DNA of 9,985 nt from Marinagarivorans sp. UBA5870. Its GTDB lineage: Bacteria > Pseudomonadota > Gammaproteobacteria > Pseudomonadales > Cellvibrionaceae. The notes beneath the pieces were generated by a model. That model did not search any database. It saw only the letters and a program-made list of their open reading frames with translations, and was not told the DNA's origin. Positions within the stretch are counted from its first letter, which is position 1; every line of letters starts with the position of its first letter. This document shows, one piece after another, positions 508-9,985 of the stretch. Both the position numbers and the translations under genes were made by a program. The DNA lies in assembly GCA_002432555.1 (NCBI GenBank), contig DJFO01000039.1, positions 3,106 to 13,090 on the forward strand. The letters are read 5' to 3'.

Positions 508-3500
508 TGTCCCGCGGCACCAGCGGAGCCACCTGTCACAGGTAAACACGCGATAATCCTTTCGGCCAAGTCCACCGAGCAACTGCGCCAGCAGGCGGAA
601 AATCTGCGGCTGCATATTCTCACCCGCGCGCTCTCGGATACCGAACTTGCCGACGTGGCCTTTACGCTCCAGTTGGGCCGCGACCCCATGGAGGAAAGGG
701 TTGGTTTTATTGTCGACAACATGGCCGCGCTCACGGCTGCGCTCGGTGCTTTTGCCGAGGGTCAGGTGCCCCGCGATAGCTTTCGCGGCAGCGCCCAGGC
801 CCGGGGCGCTGTCGCAGGATTATTCAACCGGGATCAAACACTGAAGTCCGCGGTGGCGACTTGGCTCGAACAGCGTGACTATGCCAGCTTGCTCAGCCTG
901 TGGGTCCAAGGCATGGACGTGGACTGGCGCGCTGGGTATCGGGGAACGTCGGGTCACCCACGCCGCGTCAGCCTGCCTGTTTACCCCCTGGCAAAGCAGC
1001 GCTTTTGGGTCGCCGACCAAATCCACGCCGCGCGCAGCGGAAATCAATCGGTAACCCATGTAGAACGGTCAGACACCGGCTTGCGCAATTCTTTGGCGAC
1101 TGCCCTGTCACCGAGCTTGTTACGCCGCGCTGCCACTACGGAGCGAGAAACCGTCTTCCATGTCACTTTCAAGGGTGATGAATTTTTTCTGCGGGATCAC
1201 CAGATTTCGGGCGAGAGCCTGCTGCCGGGCGCCATGCAACTGGAACTGATTTACCGCGCAGCATCGGAAAGTTTTGCCCGCCCGGTCCAAATCCGCGACC
1301 TGGTTTGGATCAAGCCGATAAAAGGTGCAATAAAACCTGTTGAGCTCGCCGTGGTTATCAGCGGTAACAACGGCCAAACTGCCGACTGTGAAATCCGCGA
1401 TGCGGCGACGCAGACGCTCTACTGCAAAAGCCGAGTCGAAATTGCGCAATTCACTGCACCGGCTGCCATGGATCTCGCTCGGCTCCAGCGCCATCCGACA
1501 CTGGTTTCCATAGAGGCCGCACCGCTTTATGCCACTTATGCGCGTATGGGTCTTGCTTACGGAGCCGCGCATCGGAGTCTGACCCGGTTGGCCCATTTTC
1601 GCGATGAAGAGCGCGGACCCGGGGTGCTGGCGCAAATCGAATTGCCGGCCGAGGCCAAGACAGATTTCAGCTTCACTTTGAATCCGGCCATTTTAGACGG
1701 CGCACTCCAGGCGATCGCCGGCCTCATGCTCAATAAATCTTCTGAGCCAGTGCCCGCTGTCCCTTTTGCACTTGGTAGCTTGCGGGTCTACCAACCGCTC
1801 CCCGCCAAGGCTTGGGCGCTGCTGTATTTCGGCGCAGGCAGCCGATCGGACGACCCTGTGCAAAAGATTCATATCGATCTGATCGACGCTGCTGGCGCCC
1901 TCTGTGCCGAGCTGCGCGATTTTTCCACCCGCCGATTGTCCTCCGCCGGATCAAGGGCGCTGCTGGACGATCAGCCCGCCCAGAATGAGCTTGCGGACCT
2001 GCAGGACCTGGGATTCGCGCCCGTGGTGAAACTCGTCAAACAAATTCTTTGCAGCACCACAGGTCTTGATGAAAACGTGATTCGCCTCGATACCCCTTTC
2101 GAAAAATTCGGCATTGACTCGGTTACTCAGGTGAATTTCACTGCCGAGCTGGAAAAAATCGTCGGTCCTTTACCCAAAACATTGATGTTTGAATACAGCA
2201 CTGTGCGGGAATTGACGGATTACCTCATCCGCGAAAAGGGCGATGAACTGCGCCTGGCGAATGGAGTAAATATTCGCGCCCGGACGGAGGATCTCAAACC
2301 CGCAGCATCCCCCATGGGCGCAGCTGTGCCCGAAGGCAAAAGCTCACCATCCACTACAGGATTCAAAGCGGGCAATCGGCCGGCCTCAAGCGAGGATATT
2401 TCATTGAATTCGGACCGCTCCGCAGCTGGTGAACCGGAAGCGATCGCCATCATCGGGATAAGCGGCCGCTATCCGGGCGCCAGGGATCTGGCAGAGTTTT
2501 GGGAAAACCTCAACCAAGGCAAAAACTGTATCGCGCTGGCACCGGAAGGCCGGTGGCATTTTCCGTTGCAGTCCGACAATCCGGAGAGTGCGCGGCGATT
2601 TGGTGGATTTCTCGACGCGGTTGACTGTTTCGACCATCGTTTATTCGGTATAGACCCCACCTGGGTGACGCAGGGTTTAACCTACGAAACCCGCCTGTTT
2701 CTGGAAACTGTTTATCGCTTATTTGAAAATGCCCATTACGGGCGCGATGCGATCGGCGATATTCAGCAGCGACGAGGCGCGGGCATAGGTGTATTCGTTG
2801 CCTCCATGTACAGTCAAAGCGCCTGGCGGCAAGCTTCCCTTGAACAGGCTTCCATGGTGTCCAATCTGTCCGAGTGGCATATCGCCAATCGGACGTCGCA
2901 TTTTTTCGATTTGCAAGGTCCCAGCATCGCCATCAATACCGCCTGTTCCGGATCCTTGACCGCGGTGCATCTCGCTATGGAAGCCTTGCGTACGGGCAGT
3001 GCCTGCCTGGCGGTGGCCGGCGGAATCAATTTAAGTCTCAATGAATCCAAATACGCCGCCCTGGCGAGCGCGGACTTTCTCGACAGAGGCAACGCCAGCA
3101 AAAGTTTTGGGGTCGGCGAAGGTTATATTCCCGGCGAAGGGGTGGGGGCGGTCCTGCTAAAGCCACTGGGCGATGCGGAACGCGACGGGGATTTTATTTA
3201 TGCCGTGTTGCGCCATAGCGAAGTTAATCACGGCGGCGCCCGCCAAGCCTATAGCGCACCGGATCCGAAACAGCAGGCGCGGTTAATCCAGCGTGCGCTC
3301 CAGCGCAGCAAAATTGACCCGAACTCCATCAGCTACATAGAGTCGGCGGCAAACGGATCGCCGCTGGGTGACCCGATCGAAATCGTCGCGCTCAAAAGAG
3401 CGTTCACCGACGCGGGTATAACGCCCGCTTACCGCTGCGCCCTCGGGTCGGTCAAATCCAATATTGGCCACCTCGAGGCTGCCTCCGGGATATCGCAACT

Positions 3501-6500
3501 CACCAAGGTCGTGCTGCAACTTGCGGCGGGAAAAATCGTTCCCTCCATCAATGCCCGTCCGCGCAACCCCGCGATTCAGCTCGACCAAAGTCCGTTTTAT
3601 ATCCAGGAGGAAATTTCGGAGTGGCGCGCGGTGACCGATAGCGATGGGGCAGCTCTGCCTAGGCGCGCCATGATCAATTCTTTTGGAGCGGGTGGTGCAT
3701 GCGCCAACCTGCTCGTCGAAGAATATTTGGCTTCCGGGACCGTCGGCCGCGGAGGAATCCCGGCGGTGGGAGACGAACATTTGTGTCCATTTTCCGCGGC
3801 GACAGAGTGGTCCCTCTGGGAAAACCTGCGCAACGTCCGTCAGTTTCTCTCGCAGGGCTCCGATCTCGACCTCGTTGCCATCAGCCAGGCGCTGCTGCGG
3901 CGCAATTTTAATCTGCCGGTTCGAGTGTGTGTCCTGGCCGCGTCGATCGAGGACCTGCTGGACAAGCTGGATTTTATTCTGGCGCGCCGCTGCGGTGATC
4001 GGGCGCGGGGCCTGTTTTTCTCCGCGCCGACCCGGCCGGCTGATGTTGCCCTGATCGAGCGGCTGGAAGCGGGCGGCGAGGCGCTATTGATTTGTGCAAA
4101 GGCAGACATCGCGGAAGCTTGGGTTGGCGGAATGCATCTCAACTTTTTGCCGCTCGTCAAATCTTTCACCGCCCGCCAGCAGGTTCGGTTGCCGGATTAT
4201 GCTTTTGATCACGCGATCGATTTTTCCGCGCGAAGTCCGCAAGCTGCGTCGCCGCCAATGGCGGCGACAATCTTTCGTTGGGATGAGCCCCTGTTGCGCG
4301 ACCATCAGGTCAATGGCGAGCGGGTTTTGATAGGTGTCTGCCACGCGAGCTTGGCGATCAATAAATTCCTCGATACGCACGTCTCTGCCCCCGGCGCGCG
4401 TCTCAGCCGCCTGCTCTTCGTTGAGCCGGTGGTGGTCAAGCAGGGCGGGCAGGTGTTTATCGATATCGAATTGGATCCGCCAAGTCACGGCTTCAGCGCC
4501 CGCTTCACGAGTGGCGGAACCGATGGGAAAACCGGTGTGGCCGCCAAAGGAAAAATTCAGACCGACGAGCTGGATTGGGGAGGGAACATCGACCTGCACA
4601 AACTGCGTGACGGGTTGATCGAGTTCCCGGCAATCGATGCACTTTACGGCGCAAATCCTATCTTAACGCTGGGCGCCTATTTCAAGCCGCTCAGCAAACT
4701 CTACGTCAACACCACGGCGGCCCTGGGAGAAGTCAATCTGGGGGAGCAGGGCAGCTACCGGGTCCATCCCCTGGCTTTGAACACGGCTTTTCAGATGGTG
4801 GCTGCGATTCTCGCTACCGAAGGTTCCGCGCGCACCGACGATGGTTATTTGCCGTTTGGCATAGGTTCTGTACGCGCTTCCCGAATTATACAGCCCGCGC
4901 ATTTTTGGCTGCATGTGCGTTTAGTCAAAAGGACCAGCGACATTATCCTCTTTGATGCAGATATTTTCAGTGAGGATGGCGCCGTACTGGCCAAGGTGGA
5001 AGAGGGCGCTATCAAGCGGGTTCGCCAAGCTGCGGCATCGACAGCAGCGACCGAAAAATCCGTGCCTCAACAAAACGCGACGCGCATGAGCGCTCCTGTC
5101 GGACCGTCAGTGCCCAACGCGGCGCCCGCCAAAAAGCGGGCGGAACAATTTTTAATTGAGAAAGTTCGAGGTTTGCATGGCGATATGCAGCTGCGGCTGA
5201 ATGTGCGTGCCAACCTCATGGATCTGGGGCTTGATTCGGCACGGCTGCTTGCGATGACGGAGTCCGTCAGCGCGGAACTCGGGATCGAATTAAATCCCAC
5301 GGTGTTGTTTGAGTACCCGAACATCGAAGAATTGGCTGCCTATCTTTTGCAGGAATTTCCGCATGCGTTTGCCGAGCCGGCGGTTTCCGCAACGGTCGCC
5401 GCGGCCGAATCCGCCCTCGGCGACTCCGGAACGGCGCAGGCCGGGTCGCGCCTGGAAGCTGTCGTGCCTGCGCGCCAGCAGCAAACCGCCGCTGCGCTCC
5501 CGCACGGCGCAACGCAGGGTCAGCCCAGTGGTTACGCGGTTATCGGCATGAGCGGTCGCTTCAGCCATTCCGAGAATCTGGAGGCATTTTGGCAGAACCT
5601 CCTGGACCGGCGCGACCTGATGACCGAAATTCCAATGGATCACTGGGATTTTCGTCCATGGTATTCGCCGGAGCGAGGTGCCGAGAACAAAACCTATTGC
5701 AAATGGGGCAGTTTTATCTCGGACGTGGATAAGTTTGACGCGCGATTTTTTGGCATTTCGCCAATGGAGGCGAAGTGGATCGATCCGCAGCTGCGCCTGC
5801 TGTTTGAAAGCACCTACCACGCGGCGGAGAACGCGGGTGTCATCCGTCAATTGCGCGGCAGCCGCACCGGGGTTTTCATCGGCGCGTGTTTTCATGACTA
5901 TCTCGACAAAATGAATGAGCTCAAATTGTCGGTCAACCCCTACATGGGAATGGGTAATGTGCAGACCATTCTCGCCAATCGTTTGTCATTTTACTTCGAT
6001 CTGAATGGTCCCAGCGTCGCCTATGATACTGCCTGCTCTTCTTCACTGGTCGCTTTGCACGAGGCCTGCAAAGCCATCGACGAAGGCGAATGCGAAATGG
6101 CGATCGTGGGCGGAACCAATCTGCTCCTCGCCGCGGGACACTCCCTCTATTTTTCCAGCCTGAGCGCATTGTCCGGCACCGGACGGTGCCATACGTTCGA
6201 CGCGCGCGCCGACGGTTATGTACCCGGCGAATGCGTCGCAGCTATGGTCATTAAACCTTTGGCGAGGGCGTTGAAAGATCGCAATCGCATCGAAGCGGTG
6301 ATCAAAGGATCGGCGGCGCTGCATGGTGGTTACACGCCTTCGCTCACGGCCCCCAGTGTCAAAGGCGAAGAAAATGTCATAGTCAAAGCCTGGGAAAAAT
6401 CCGGGATCGATCCCGCGACACTGGGTTATATCGAAGCCCACGGCACGGGCACTCCGCTGGGGGATCCGATCGAAATCAGCAGTTTGAACAAAGCTTTCGC

Positions 6501-9500
6501 GCGCTATACCCCGGCAAAAGGTTTTTGCGCGATCGGCTCTGCGAAGGCGAGCATCGGCCATGCAGAAGGCGCCGCCGGCATTGCCGGGGTGCTCAAAGTC
6601 ATCAAACAGATCCAGCACCGGATCTTACCCGCGATGCCGGCATTCGAGCGGCTGAATCCCGCCATCAACCTCAGTCGTTCGGCACTCTATATCAATACGG
6701 AAGCCCAGCCATGGGTCGTCCCGGCCGGCGTTCCCCGGCGTGCCGGCGTCAATTCGTTCGGCTTCTCGGGCGTCTATGCCCATGCGGTCATCGAGGAATT
6801 TCTACCGGAGCAGTACCCGGAATATTTCTCTTCCGACGCGCCGCAAGTGTTTCCCATACTGACGTTGTCGGCGAAGAGTAGAACCCAATTGCGCAAAATT
6901 GCGCACAATCTGCTGGAATGGCTGGCCGCACAGCAACTGGACGTGCGGGACCTGCCCCGTTTGCTCTATACCCTGCAATGCGGCCGCGAAGGCATGGAAA
7001 CGCGCTTCGCGCGCCTTGTCACCTCGTTGGAGGATCTGCAGCAGAACTTGAATGATCTGGTGTATGAGGGGCAGTCCGCGTCCGCTGCAACCCAGGAGAG
7101 CAGTGCGACCGATCAATTCGCCACAGAGGAAGAGTCGCTGGATTATGTTGAGCGCTGCATCGCCGCGAAGGATTGGGCCACTCTTGCGACTGCCTGGTCT
7201 CAGGGTTTGCCAATTGACTGGCAGAGCCATTATCGGGGAGGCGCCGCCGCACTGATTCCGCTTGCCTTGCCTGAGTATCCATTTCTCAAGGAATCCCACT
7301 GGATTGAACCGCGGGAATCCATGGCAGGCATTGCGGCCGTCACCGATTCCCCGGTCGTCAATAATGCGCCGTCCCACCATTCGGAGACCGATAACAATGT
7401 GTACACCTGGGCACCGGTATGGGAGGAGGCGGAGCTGAAGTCCCCGTCCGCAAAGTGGAATGAGTTAGCGCGCCACGTGATATTGATAGGCGATTCCGCC
7501 GCAACTGCCTTCGCAGCTCTGCGTGCCCAGGCACCAAATCCCGCCTGGCAGTTTGTCGCACGGGGCGATGATCTCCGCGGGTTGACGCCGCTGATCGCAA
7601 AAGTTTTTTCCGCGACGAAGAGCATTTCCTCCGCCAGGGGAACGTCGTTGTTAATTCAATTGGCCGTGCTGAGCGATGCCGAGCCGTGCGACCAGACGAT
7701 TGCCCTCGGCGGGCTCTTGCGGACATTGAGCAAAGAAAACCCAGCGATTCAGACCCAATGGATTCAGTTAGATACCCGCAGCGATGCGCCGACGATTATT
7801 CGTCAACTCGAGCACCAAGCGACGCAGACAGACAATGAAATCATTTTGCGGGCGGGTAAACGGATTACCAGGCGCTGGGTGCCGATGGAGTTGCCGCCCG
7901 CGCGCGGCAAACTTTTCTGCGACCAAGGCGTATACCTGGTCACCGGCGGCCTCGGCGGAATCGCCGGCCAGTTGATCCAGCATGCCGGCAGGGAACAGGT
8001 TGAAGCCAGCCTGATTCTCACCGGCCGATCGGCACTGTCAGCGGTAACGCGTGATCGGCTGGAGGTATTGCGACAGCACTCGGGCAAGGTAAAGATTCAT
8101 TACGCAACGATGGACGTGGCAAACCCTGACGAGGTCGCCCACGTGCTTGCTTCCGTGCGCGAGCAATTCGGGGCGCTGCGGGGAATTTTTCACTGCGCCG
8201 GCATCACGCGGGATACTTTAATTCGCCACAAATCGATCGACGAGTTTCTCGATGTATTGCAGCCGAAGGTCGAGGGTACGCTGAATCTCGATCAAGCGAC
8301 CCGAGCGGACCCGCTGGATTATTTCATCTGTTTTTCGTCGATCGCTGCGGTCCTCGGCAACCCCGGTCAGGCGGATTACGCCACCGCCAATGCTTTTATG
8401 GACAGTTTCGTGGGACGCCGAAACCAATTGGTGCGTGCAGGGCAGGGCCGTGGCCGGGCGGTGGCTATTAATTGGCCTCTGTGGGAGGAAGGTGGAATGG
8501 GTGTCGGAGCTGGGACACTGGCGGCCATGAACCAGCTGGGAATGGACGAATTACCCTCGGCGTCTGCCCTGCGTCTATTAGCGTCGCTCCTGACCGCGGA
8601 AGTCGGATTGGAGCAATTGTTGGTGCTGTGCGGCGACCGGTCGCGATTGAGCAAGTTGCTCGATTCGCCCGGCACTCGAGAACCGGAAATCCGGCCGAAG
8701 AGAGACGCTCGTGAAAATCGTGAAAACGGCGAATTGTTGCGACGGGTTCAGCAAGAGCTTATCCAGCAGGCGGCGAGCATCCTGCAACTGTCACCGCGGG
8801 AGATCACCCTGGAGGCGAGCCTGACCGACTTTGGTTTTGAGTCCATCAGTTTATCGATGTTGGCGAAAAACATGGCCGCGCGTTACGCAATAACGATTCC
8901 GCCCACCGTCTTCTACGAACACTTTTCGCTGGGAAGTTTTGCAAAATACCTGGCCGATGAGTATGTCGGTGAGCTGTCAAACCAGCTGCTGACGGGTTCC
9001 GGCATACAGGCAGAACCCGCCGAATCGTCATTGTCTGTGAAAAAAATCGAGAGTACATCGGCGGCGATGGCCTTACCCCGCGGTGCCACGGATCCGGATG
9101 CTATAGCCGTCATTGCCATGGCCGGAAAATTTCCCGGGGCCGAGACTCTAGAGACCTTTTGGGACAACCTGTTCAATGGCCGAGATTGCATCACGGAAAT
9201 TCCGCACAGCCGCTGGGATAGTCAGACCTATTTTGATGCGGAGCGCGGCAAGCTCGACAAAACTTACTGCAAATGGGGTGGTTTTATCGACGGCATCGAT
9301 CAATTCGATTCGCTGTTCTTTAATATCGCACCTAATGCCGCCGCGCTGATGAATCCTAAAGAGGGACTCTTTATGCAGTGCGTGTGGTCGCTCTTTGAGG
9401 GCGCCGGACTCACTCGGGCGGAAATCGCCAAGCAGTATGACAATCAGGTGGGAATTTATGTGGGGGTGATGGGCCACCAGGGCGAGGACCCGGCGAGCGC

Positions 9501-9985
9501 CGGTACTCGGCCTAAAATAACCGCTTTGAATACCGGTAGCGCACTGGCGAGCAGAGTTTCCTATTTCTTTGACTTCAAAGGACCGTGTGTTGCCTTCGAA
9601 ACTATGTGCTCTTCCTCGAGCACCGCGCTCTATTACGCCTGTCGAGATCTCCAGCGCGGTGACTGCGAGCTCGCCGTGGTGGGCGGTGCAAATCTTTCGC
9701 TTTATCCCAACAAGTACGTCGAACTCAGTTTGTTCAACATCGCGGGCAGCCGCGCGGACTGTCGCAGCTTCGGGCAGGGCGACGGCTACTTGCCAGCGGA
9801 AGCCGTAGCGGCGGTGCTGCTGAAGCCCCTCAGCAAGGCAATCGAAGATGGCGACAGTGTCGCCGGAGTGATTACCGCGGTCGGTCTCAACAACAACGGC
9901 AAAACGAACGGCTATTCCACTCCGAGTCTGGTGAGTCAGGCGGAGTTGATCGAGCGCACCCTGAGATCGGCCAAGATTTCACCTT
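1..9985 (+). CDS. Trans-AT modular type I polyketide synthase (internal fragment, open at both ends)
   Basis: One uninterrupted plus-strand frame (frame 1) spans the window, giving at least 3328 residues, over 350 kDa even as a fragment. Neither start nor stop codon is present: the first visible residues are already inside a ketosynthase and the last are inside another. Domain order is KS-DH-ACP, KS(0)-DH*-ACP, KS-KR-ACP, KS. The protein is a cytosolic megasynthase that builds a polyketide by decarboxylative Claisen condensation of malonyl units on ACP-bound phosphopantetheine arms. No integrated AT domain is present, and the docking-type linkers after the KSs assign it to the trans-AT class, known from the bacillaene, rhizoxin and corallopyronin pathways. 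Every expected domain motif falls in this one frame in order, so I see no frameshift or gene boundary. The final product is unknown. Residue numbers in all entries count from base 1 (residue n ends at base 3n). Confidence 0.98.
550..1017 (+). other. Post-KS flanking / trans-AT docking linker LD1 (residues 184-339)
   Basis: About 155 residues between KS1 and DH1. It begins with the LSAKS-type strand (residues 188-192) that opens the KS-AT linker fold. It then has a helical stretch with LQLGR, the WVQGMDVDW block (301-309), and the YPLAKQRFW motif (328-336), equivalent to the YPFxxxRYW post-AT linker of cis-AT synthases. A cis-AT would add about 300 residues with a GHSxG nucleophile here, and neither is present. 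In trans-AT synthases this remnant is the proposed docking site for the free-standing acyltransferase. Its good conservation here contrasts with the degenerate counterpart after KS2. Confidence 0.85.
1108..1935 (+). other. Dehydratase domain DH1, apparently active (residues 370-645)
   Basis: Double-hotdog dehydratase that removes water from a beta-hydroxyacyl-ACP to give the alpha,beta-enoyl thioester. The first motif HxxxGxxxxPG is intact, with His400, Gly404, Pro409 and Gly410. The second reads GLAYGAAH at residues 517-524; Pro of the usual YGPxH/F is Ala522, a mild change. The third motif is LDGALQ with Asp566 and Gln570, preserving DxxxQ, though the preceding HP is NP (561-562). The domain lies between LD1 and ACP1 with no room for a ketoreductase on either side, so its beta-hydroxy substrate must be generated elsewhere. 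The size (about 275 residues) is normal. A relaxed-function or relic DH cannot be fully excluded, but both catalytic residues are present. Confidence 0.9.
1996..2235 (+). other. Acyl carrier protein ACP1 (residues 666-745)
   Basis: Four-helix carrier domain that tethers the growing chain on phosphopantetheine. The modification site is Ser707 in FGIDSVTQ (residues 703-710; serine codon at 2119-2121). The upstream helix VVKLVKQIL and the downstream LMFEYSTV box plus a final YLI helix (from residue 741) match the carrier fold. It is a single ACP, not a tandem. No Trp occurs anywhere in the domain, so it lacks the conserved Trp reported for ACPs that recruit beta-branching (HMG-synthase) cassettes. 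It should present the DH1 product to KS2 of the next module. Confidence 0.96.
2236..2436 (+). other. Inter-module linker between ACP1 and KS2 (residues 746-812)
   Basis: About 67 residues rich in Ala, Pro, Ser, Gly and charged residues, with no recognisable domain motif. It reads as a flexible, unstructured connector between modules. The frame stays open and there is no stop/start pair, so this is an internal linker and not a junction between two subunits. Confidence 0.8.
2437..3726 (+). other. Non-elongating ketosynthase KS2 (KS0; residues 813-1242)
   Basis: Complete KS fold beginning AIAIIGISGRYPG (814-826). The acyl-accepting nucleophile is Cys982 in NTACSGS (codon 2944-2946). The usual EAHGTGT box reads ESAANGS at residues 1114-1120, so the decarboxylation His is Ala1116 (codon 3346-3348). 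His1157 in NIGHLEA is kept. Loss of the HGTGT His with retention of Cys is the accepted hallmark of KS0 domains in trans-AT synthases, which accept and pass on the chain without adding malonate. Other drift agrees: the usual DPQQR box is TYETR (894-898), and the C-terminal SFGxGGxNAH box reads SFGAGGACAN (1167-1176). It pairs with the DH-like isomerase candidate that follows. Confidence 0.93.
3781..4224 (+). other. Degenerate post-KS linker LD2 (residues 1261-1408)
   Basis: This occupies the position that LD1 and LD3 hold after their ketosynthases and is of similar size, but the hallmark motifs have decayed. The block WxxGxxxDW of the other two linkers is WVGGMHLNF here (1374-1382). The terminal YPFxxxxxW motif is YAFDHAIDF (1400-1408), lacking the Pro and the Trp. 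No GHSxG is present, so it is not an AT. Because KS2 should not need a malonyl extender, relaxed selection on AT docking is a reasonable inference, but it is not shown directly. Confidence 0.75.
4261..5025 (+). other. DH-like enoyl-isomerase / double-bond-shift domain DH2* (residues 1421-1675)
   Basis: A double-hotdog domain of about 255 residues aligned with DH1 by position and motif. The first motif keeps His1435 and Gly1439, but the Pro of HxxxGxxxxP is Ile1444 (HQVNGERVLIG, 1435-1445). The second motif is GAYFKPL (1558-1564). In the third, HPLALNTAFQ (1589-1598), the catalytic Asp of DxxxQ is Asn1594 (codon 4780-4782). Loss of both the Pro and the Asp with retention of the His is the pattern described for domains that move an alpha,beta double bond to beta,gamma in trans-AT synthases such as rhizoxin and bacillaene. 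Without the Asp, normal dehydration is not expected. An inactive DH relic or a pyran-synthase-like domain are alternatives; the KS0 partner and the exact two-site signature favour the isomerase. Confidence 0.85.
5131..5355 (+). other. Acyl carrier protein ACP2 (residues 1711-1785)
   Basis: Carrier domain with the phosphopantetheine serine Ser1746 in LGLDSARLL (1742-1750; codon 5236-5238), then a VLFEYPNIEELAAYL tail typical of the fourth helix. It is a single ACP that closes the KS0-DH* module. Expected cargo is the beta,gamma-unsaturated acyl chain made by DH2*, which KS3 would accept. The domain is preceded by a 35-residue Ala/Pro/Gln-rich spacer (about 5026-5130). Confidence 0.96.
5356..5532 (+). 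other. Ala/Gln/Pro-rich inter-module linker between ACP2 and KS3 (residues 1786-1844)
   Basis: Nearly 60 residues of low-complexity sequence with runs such as AVSATVAAAESA and RQQQTAAA, and no domain motif. It is probably a flexible tether between modules. The coding frame is open throughout. The base composition is noticeably GC-rich, reflecting Ala and Gly codons. Confidence 0.8.
5533..6801 (+). other. Elongating ketosynthase KS3 (residues 1845-2267)
   Basis: Complete condensing domain with all three catalytic residues: Cys2012 in DTACSSS (codon 6034-6036), His2147 in EAHGTGT (2145-2151) and His2187 in SIGHAEGAAG (2184-2193). The trans-AT-typical KTYCKWGSF block lies at 1877-1885. It should take the chain from ACP2 and extend it by two carbons from malonyl-ACP3. 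In trans-AT lines KS specificity follows the structure delivered upstream, so KS3 is expected to group with clades that accept beta,gamma-unsaturated chains. One oddity is the C-terminal box SFGFSGVYAH (2252-2261), where the near-invariant Asn before AH is Tyr2259. All catalytic positions are normal. Confidence 0.97.
6841..7311 (+). other. Post-KS flanking / trans-AT docking linker LD3 (residues 2281-2437)
   Basis: Same architecture as LD1: an LTLSAKS strand (2287-2293), LQCGREG in the middle, WSQGLPIDW (2399-2407) and a terminal YPFLKESHW motif (2426-2434). No AT domain or GHSxG is present. The preserved W-x-x-G-x-x-x-D-W and YPF...W motifs match LD1 and differ from the decayed LD2, in line with KS3 being an elongating domain that needs malonyl delivery by a separate AT. 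Confidence 0.85.
7399..8640 (+). other. Ketoreductase domain KR, predicted B-type (residues 2467-2880)
   Basis: NADPH-dependent short-chain dehydrogenase-type domain that reduces the beta-keto group formed by KS3. A structural half starts at VYTWAPVWEE (2467-2476) and a catalytic half at YLVTGGLGGIAG (2645-2656). The third Gly of GxGxxG is Ala2655, a tolerated variant in some SDRs. Catalytic residues are Lys2756, Ser2780 and Tyr2793 in GQADYATAN (2789-2797), with Asn2797. The LDD-type box reads TRD (2736-2738); the diagnostic second Asp (Asp2738) is kept, and the position eight before Tyr is Leu2785 and not the Trp of A-type KRs. This predicts a D-configured beta-hydroxyl (usually 3R). No DH follows in this module, so the hydroxyl should be retained unless a later module removes it. 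Confidence 0.94.
8731..8973 (+). other. Acyl carrier protein ACP3 (residues 2911-2991)
   Basis: Carrier domain with the phosphopantetheine serine Ser2948 in DFGFESISL (2943-2951; codon 8842-8844). The residue before the Ser is Glu instead of the usual Asp, a variant often seen in trans-AT ACPs. The C-terminal part has VFYEHFSLGSFAKYL. It closes the KS3-KR module and should carry the beta-hydroxy intermediate to KS4. Confidence 0.96.
8974..9096 (+). other. Inter-module linker between ACP3 and KS4 (residues 2992-3032)
   Basis: About 41 residues rich in Ser, Ala, Glu and Pro without domain motifs. It is an open-frame connector between ACP3 and KS4. No stop codon or new start with a plausible ribosome binding site is present, so the next module is on the same polypeptide. 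Confidence 0.75.
9097..9985 (+). other. Ketosynthase domain KS4, N-terminal part (residues 3033 to window end)
   Basis: Starts at DAIAVIAMAGKFPG (3033-3046) and carries KTYCKWGGF (3087-3095). The active-site Cys is Cys3203 in TMCSSSS (codon 9607-9609), and the sequence runs into the NGKTNGYSTPS loop (from residue 3299) before the window ends. The HGTGT and NIGH histidines lie downstream, so activity cannot be judged. Met before the Cys, in place of the common Ala, and YLPAEAVAAV in place of VPGEGVGAV place it in a different KS group from KS3. Departures from the general KS consensus include Gly3122, where an Arg of the PKERLF box is expected, and Ser3184, where the Asn of IANRVSY is expected. 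Its expected substrate is the beta-hydroxy chain from ACP3. Confidence 0.95.

Follow-up and report, generated by a model that had tools for sequence, protein, structure and literature searches.

Does a polyketide synthase of Marinagarivorans sp. UBA5870 move a double bond along its growing chain and, if so, which domains would do so? The question is raised by a stretch of 9,985 nucleotides (contig DJFO01000039.1, positions 3,106 to 13,090), referred to here as the window, for which a preliminary description had proposed a double-bond shift module at positions 2437 to 5355. Our analysis indicates that this unit is very probably a module consisting of a non-elongating ketosynthase (KS0), an enoyl-isomerase (EI), and an acyl carrier protein (ACP) of a trans-acyltransferase (trans-AT) polyketide synthase (PKS), which would shift the double bond. 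Judged by clade, it is most likely a divergent member of this module type; the assembly line itself is undescribed.

A reading frame of 3328 amino acids spans the window without interruption and is open at both ends. Pfam matches and direct reading gave the domain order KS1 (C-terminal part), DH1, ACP1, KS2, DH2, ACP2, KS3, KR, ACP3, and KS4 (N-terminal part), all on the forward strand, where KS, DH, and KR stand for ketosynthase, dehydratase, and ketoreductase domains. The KS, DH, and ACP domains of the proposed module were all detected by Pfam within positions 2437 to 5355. No AT domain was found in the window by Pfam at E values up to 0.001, which is the expectation for a trans-AT line.

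Catalytic motifs of the proposed shift module

Direct reading bore out the residue changes reported previously. KS2 (positions 2437 to 3720), the KS0 of the shift module, contains Ala1116 (codon 3346 to 3348) in place of the HGTGT histidine, with AANGS at this site (IESAANGSPLGD aligned against IEAHGTGTPLGD). Cys982 and His1157 are retained, and loss of the HGTGT His with retention of the Cys is the pattern that marks a non-elongating KS ahead of an EI. In the HxxxGxxxxP motif of DH2 (4243 to 5064), His1435 (codon 4303 to 4305) and Gly1439 are kept, and Ile1444 (4330 to 4332) replaces the Pro; Asn1594 (4780 to 4782) replaces the Asp of DxxxQ. DH2 thus shows the hydrophobic replacement of Pro next to a retained His that is expected of shift domains, and lacks the pair of catalytic His and Asp/Glu of an ordinary dehydratase. 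The module ends with ACP2 (5143 to 5349, Ser1746), assigned by Pfam and residue reading.

To place these residues, relatives were collected from one scan of genome contigs, which yielded 16 loci with EIs in nine (L001 to L009), and from plasmid records, which added three loci from Bacillus velezensis (L025), Nostoc (L026), and Bacillus spizizenii (L027). The resulting main set comprised 13 EIs in 12 loci: two from Chitinophaga, one from a Desulfobacterales metagenome-assembled genome (MAG; two EIs), one from a Verrucomicrobia MAG, three from Pseudomonas, two from Mycetohabitans, one from Nostoc, and two from Bacillus. Residue columns were compared in an alignment of 17 related EI-type domains and 39 DHs; a short DH row had been removed, and neither group included L028_6001, L029_6001, or the two rows from the window. 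The Pro column contained I, L, or V in 17/17 EIs and P in 39/39 DHs. In the Asp column, 13 of the 17 EIs had N and the other 4 had Y, as opposed to D or E in 39/39 DHs. This split indicates that the substitutions in DH2 are not chance divergence.

The signature had also been called complete. The Pro and Asp replacements stand; completeness does not, since Gln1598 of DxxxQ (codon 4792 to 4794) is still present. Q or H occupies this column in 33/39 DHs and in 0/17 EIs, 12 of which have Leu there. The retained Gln had gone unmentioned, as had the absence of a KR from the upstream module, described below.

The HGTGT His was missing from all 13 KSs that directly precede an EI (A in 12, S in one), and also from 4 of 61 other KSs. 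Loss of the KS His was therefore rejected as a stand-alone test for a shift module. On these alignments, it is the combination of KS and DH substitutions that is diagnostic, not the loss of the KS His alone.

Phylogenetic placement of DH2 and the flanking KS domains

The best solved relative of DH2 was the PksR enoyl-isomerase (4u3v), with 91 bits as compared to 29 for the next chain, and the same structure ranked first by predicted fold. A tree against EI and DH domains, the check suggested in the preliminary description, placed DH2 with 14 EI rows and apart from 46 other DH-type rows (support 99/98). This grouping persisted after removal of the diagnostic columns, and DH2 thus belongs to the EI clade and not to the DHs.

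The KS domains were placed in a quick tree of 78 rows without bootstrap, in which long branches that join one another were flagged, with KS2 and KS4 among them. KS2 and the 13 KSs directly before EIs formed one clade (14 of the 78 rows) with a Shimodaira-Hasegawa-like approximate likelihood ratio test (SH-aLRT) value of 100. KS3 (5518 to 6816), which is intact, formed a clade of 12 with the KSs that follow 11 of the 13 EIs (SH-aLRT 100) and hence has the post-shift type that is regular in the set. A repeat with a mixture model and with the HGTGT columns removed agreed for KS2 (99) and KS3 (100). KS1 (C-terminal part, 1 to 516) grouped with the KS of the module preceding the shift module in five rhizoxin-type loci and in Bacillus velezensis, with values of 97 (full tree) and 96 (KS1 columns only). 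Taken together, the matches of KS1, KS2, and KS3 show that the window reproduces a known arrangement, each of these KSs having its counterpart.

The domain assignments, the residues, the predicted fold, and the clades in which the domains fall are direct observations. The shift-module interpretation gains support from the 4u3v match, the fold, the EI clade, and the KS2 and KS3 clades, and the relatives include a rhizoxin cluster and Bacillus loci near PksR.

Proposed reaction sequence

EIs are generally described as working with their His alone, as a proton shuttle. KS1 would extend the chain, and DH1 together with a ketoreductase from elsewhere would leave an alpha,beta-enoyl thioester on ACP1. 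For the subsequent transfer, isomerization, and extension with reduction, we infer the steps from homology. The chain would be taken over by KS2 via Cys982 and handed to ACP2, with no carbon added because the HGTGT His is missing. His1435 of DH2, which would be unable to dehydrate because the acid Asp is lost, would shuttle a proton from C-gamma to C-alpha, yielding the beta,gamma-enoyl thioester. KS3 would then take this isomer and extend it, and the KR of the post-shift module (7927 to 8490), the sole KR in the window, would reduce the new ketone to R-CH=CH-CH2-CH(OH)-CH2-CO-. The predicted product piece is most likely a homoallylic alcohol, a concrete structural prediction for the product of this assembly line. 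The EI concept and its motif changes are known for bacillaene, rhizoxin, and corallopyronin (PMC11672594).

The upstream module and its missing ketoreductase

The module preceding the shift, which would have to provide the alpha,beta-enoyl substrate, is the feature that merits closer attention. DH1 (1105 to 1974) has all the motifs of an ordinary dehydratase (H400, P409, D566, and Q570) and runs straight into ACP1 (2032 to 2235, Ser707), so that KR and methyltransferase (MT) are both absent from the KS1-DH1-ACP1 module. A KR match between DH and ACP upstream of the EI was present in 18/18 relatives with that part in view, namely, 11 loci (L001 to L009, L025, and L026), the EIs in L051, L052, and L053, and the proteins P0003, P0004, P0053, and P0079; L027, truncated at this place, was left out of the count, as were P0002 and P0005, which start at the EI. 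This figure refers to KR matches, some of them weak (48 bits in L009), irrespective of catalytic residues. There are fewer than 18 independent cases, since the five rhizoxin-type loci are near equivalents of one another and those of Chitinophaga occur in pairs. A self-sufficient upstream module with DH and KR is thus a regularity of the set, not a published criterion, from which the window departs by the absence of the KR.

KS1 retains HGTGT, NIGH, and the post-KS linker. It therefore looks extension-competent, and the simplest explanation is that the reductase is supplied from elsewhere. A possible, although doubtful, alternative is a non-extending KS1: DH1 would dehydrate a beta-hydroxy chain received from an upstream KS-KR-ACP module, in the manner of a dehydrating bimodule. 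No further KR would then be needed and the chain would be one unit shorter, with the shift step unchanged. The KR-less KS1-DH1-ACP1 order fits this possibility, as do the type A bimodules, given as KS-KR-ACP-KS0//DH-ACP in PMC8456789, and a lasonolide KS that is proposed, in section 6 of PMC9600693, to be inactive despite intact catalytic residues. The motifs and linker kept by KS1 argue against it; moreover, its closest KSs are located in DH-KR-MT modules, and the one from Bacillus velezensis follows a KS-DH-KR-ACP module.

Published proposals offer precedents for a reductase acting from elsewhere. For lasonolide, section 6 of PMC9600693 suggests that the KR of the next module stands in for the one that a module lacks, as in patellazole, and for alpiniamide two modules are proposed to have one KR in common (PMC6113372). 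The KR of the post-shift module may serve ACP1's ketone in addition to its own, reaching back over KS0-isomerase-ACP, a suggestion that we consider tentative and rather unlikely. If true, the window would encode a shift line of the type KS-DH-ACP / KS0-EI-ACP / KS-KR-ACP in which one ketoreductase serves both ketones, unlike the 18 relatives with the upstream module in view.

That the KR is absent through an assembly artefact, in which repeated modules were collapsed with loss of the KR (and MT), appears unlikely. The KR match at the corresponding place in all 18 relatives would fit such a loss, and the searches for relatives returned no near-identical copy of the window for comparison (best 38% identity). 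However, the frame is open throughout and the DH1-ACP1 joint is an ordinary linker. The shift module would be unaffected in any case.

Evidence against an isomerase and remaining alternatives

Several observations weigh against the assignment of the unit as an EI-containing shift module. Ordinary DHs are also highly similar in fold to DH2. Within the EI clade, DH2 is the most divergent member (29 to 38% identity to 11 others); its EI-profile score of 216 bits is slightly below the lowest left-out value (221), and it shares 9 of 16 EI-specific positions. The KSs following the EIs of both Bacillus loci (2/13) fall outside the post-shift clade, and the upstream KR found in the relatives is lacking in the window. 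Furthermore, shift domains are usually called by loss of the Pro together with loss of the Gln/His in DxxxQ/H, according to PMC11672594 and PMC9600693, and DH2 keeps the Gln that 17/17 related domains have lost. Since this rule is worded as "usually" and is a motif guide, the clade evidence was weighed above it; the certainty of membership is lowered nonetheless.

The Asn at the position of the catalytic Asp, the divergence, and the retained Gln could also be features of a degenerate, inactive DH, in a module that merely passes the chain on and leaves the olefin in the alpha,beta position. We consider this improbable, because His1435 and the 9/16 EI-specific positions are kept, as compared to 0/16 in DH1, DH2 lies within the EI clade, and KS3 belongs with the post-shift KSs. 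An unusual DH that still dehydrates, or a pyran synthase closing a ring, is very improbable: both share the double-hotdog fold and the retained His and Gln would suit them, but DH2 lacks the acid and, in trees of EI and DH-type rows, groups with EIs; by fold, pyran synthase ranked below 4u3v.

Comparison with known systems

A close correspondence was observed with a rhizoxin cluster (Mycetohabitans L006 and L007) and Pseudomonas L005, L008, and L009, in which KS1, KS0, EI, and post-shift KS match those of the window clade by clade. L006 was assigned to a rhizoxin cluster because one of its KSs is almost identical to RhiE (4kc5) across 433 residues. These loci differ from the window in having a stop codon between KS0 and EI and an upstream module with KR and MT. 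Overall, KS0 and EI share a frame in 4 of the 13 relatives and are separated by a stop after KS0 in 9, whereas the window has both on one protein. KS2 is closest to the KS0 of the Desulfobacterales MAG (L002 and L051; 58% identity) and KS3 to its post-shift KS (64%), but in that MAG the DH of the upstream modules is accompanied by a KR.

PksR belongs to the bacillaene line. The L027 EI joined PksR at 100/99, and the L025 EI joined both at 100/99; from this tree position, we read both loci as probably bacillaene-type. PksR and these EIs have lost the Gln that the window keeps, and the downstream KSs of L025 and L027 are of a different clade from KS3. The upstream module is DH-KR-MT-ACP in L025, and L027, although cut, shows MT-ACP. 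Dehydrating bimodules (hangtaimycin, gladiolin, and others) likewise contain a KS0-DH-ACP unit cooperating with a neighboring module, according to PMC8456789; their DH is an active dehydratase, whereas DH2 lacks the acid and groups with the EIs.

Distribution of enoyl-isomerases

Across ten genomes or records, the EI profile matched 13 places with at least 263 bits (nine of them the profile's own rows), and everything else scored at most 99 bits, a gap that sharply separates the EI class. Broad draws for further EI relatives at E values up to 1e-30 returned the centre genome alone in each case (1/337, 1/345, 1/369, and 1/294), and a draw at E up to 1e-15 matched 4/296, with the centre genome alone at EI level. 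By these searches, the EI class is rare. Two more EIs, P0053 and P0079, came from a scan of 143 non-window proteins. A protein search with residues 300 to 1300, of which the best 120 of 2355 scored candidates were considered, was dominated by multi-module proteins.

KS0 and EI co-occur across Bacteroidota, Verrucomicrobiota, Desulfobacterales, Pseudomonadota, cyanobacteria, and Bacillota, with the same type of next KS except in the two Bacillus loci, which fits use as one exchangeable unit. With DH2, a class for which one solved structure was found (4u3v) gains a deep branch that retains the Gln, which helps to tell residues essential for isomerization from lineage habit.

Further domains and related loci

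Downstream of the KR are ACP3 (8755 to 8952, Ser2948) and KS4 (9100 to 9984), which is cut by the window end. KS4 carries TMCSSSS, and its own HGTGT position falls past the window end. Its neighbors in the tree, on long branches and in an unsure placement, are three KS rows from Streptomyces, two of them identical, without the HGTGT His.

Two shift modules per cluster were observed in Chitinophaga (L001/L052 and L004/L053), in a similar arrangement in two species. The Desulfobacterales MAG also has two in one line, with one KS-DH-KR-ACP module between them, and this line would be predicted to make two successive shifted double bonds. On the Klebsiella grimontii plasmid pNY3A (L028, 4021 to 7038), where the PKS is annotated as several short genes, a DH-like domain adjoins the EI clade (175 bits for EI and 126 for DH). 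It has lost the Pro and kept the Asp (IHPALLDGAMV), follows a KS with intact HGTGT, and is possibly a DH/EI intermediate. Finally, DH-like domains directly before a KS in P0006 (548 to 804) and P0007 (420 to 686) carry HxxxGxxxxM, with an H or C read by eye where the Asp would be, and may represent another DH-derived type.

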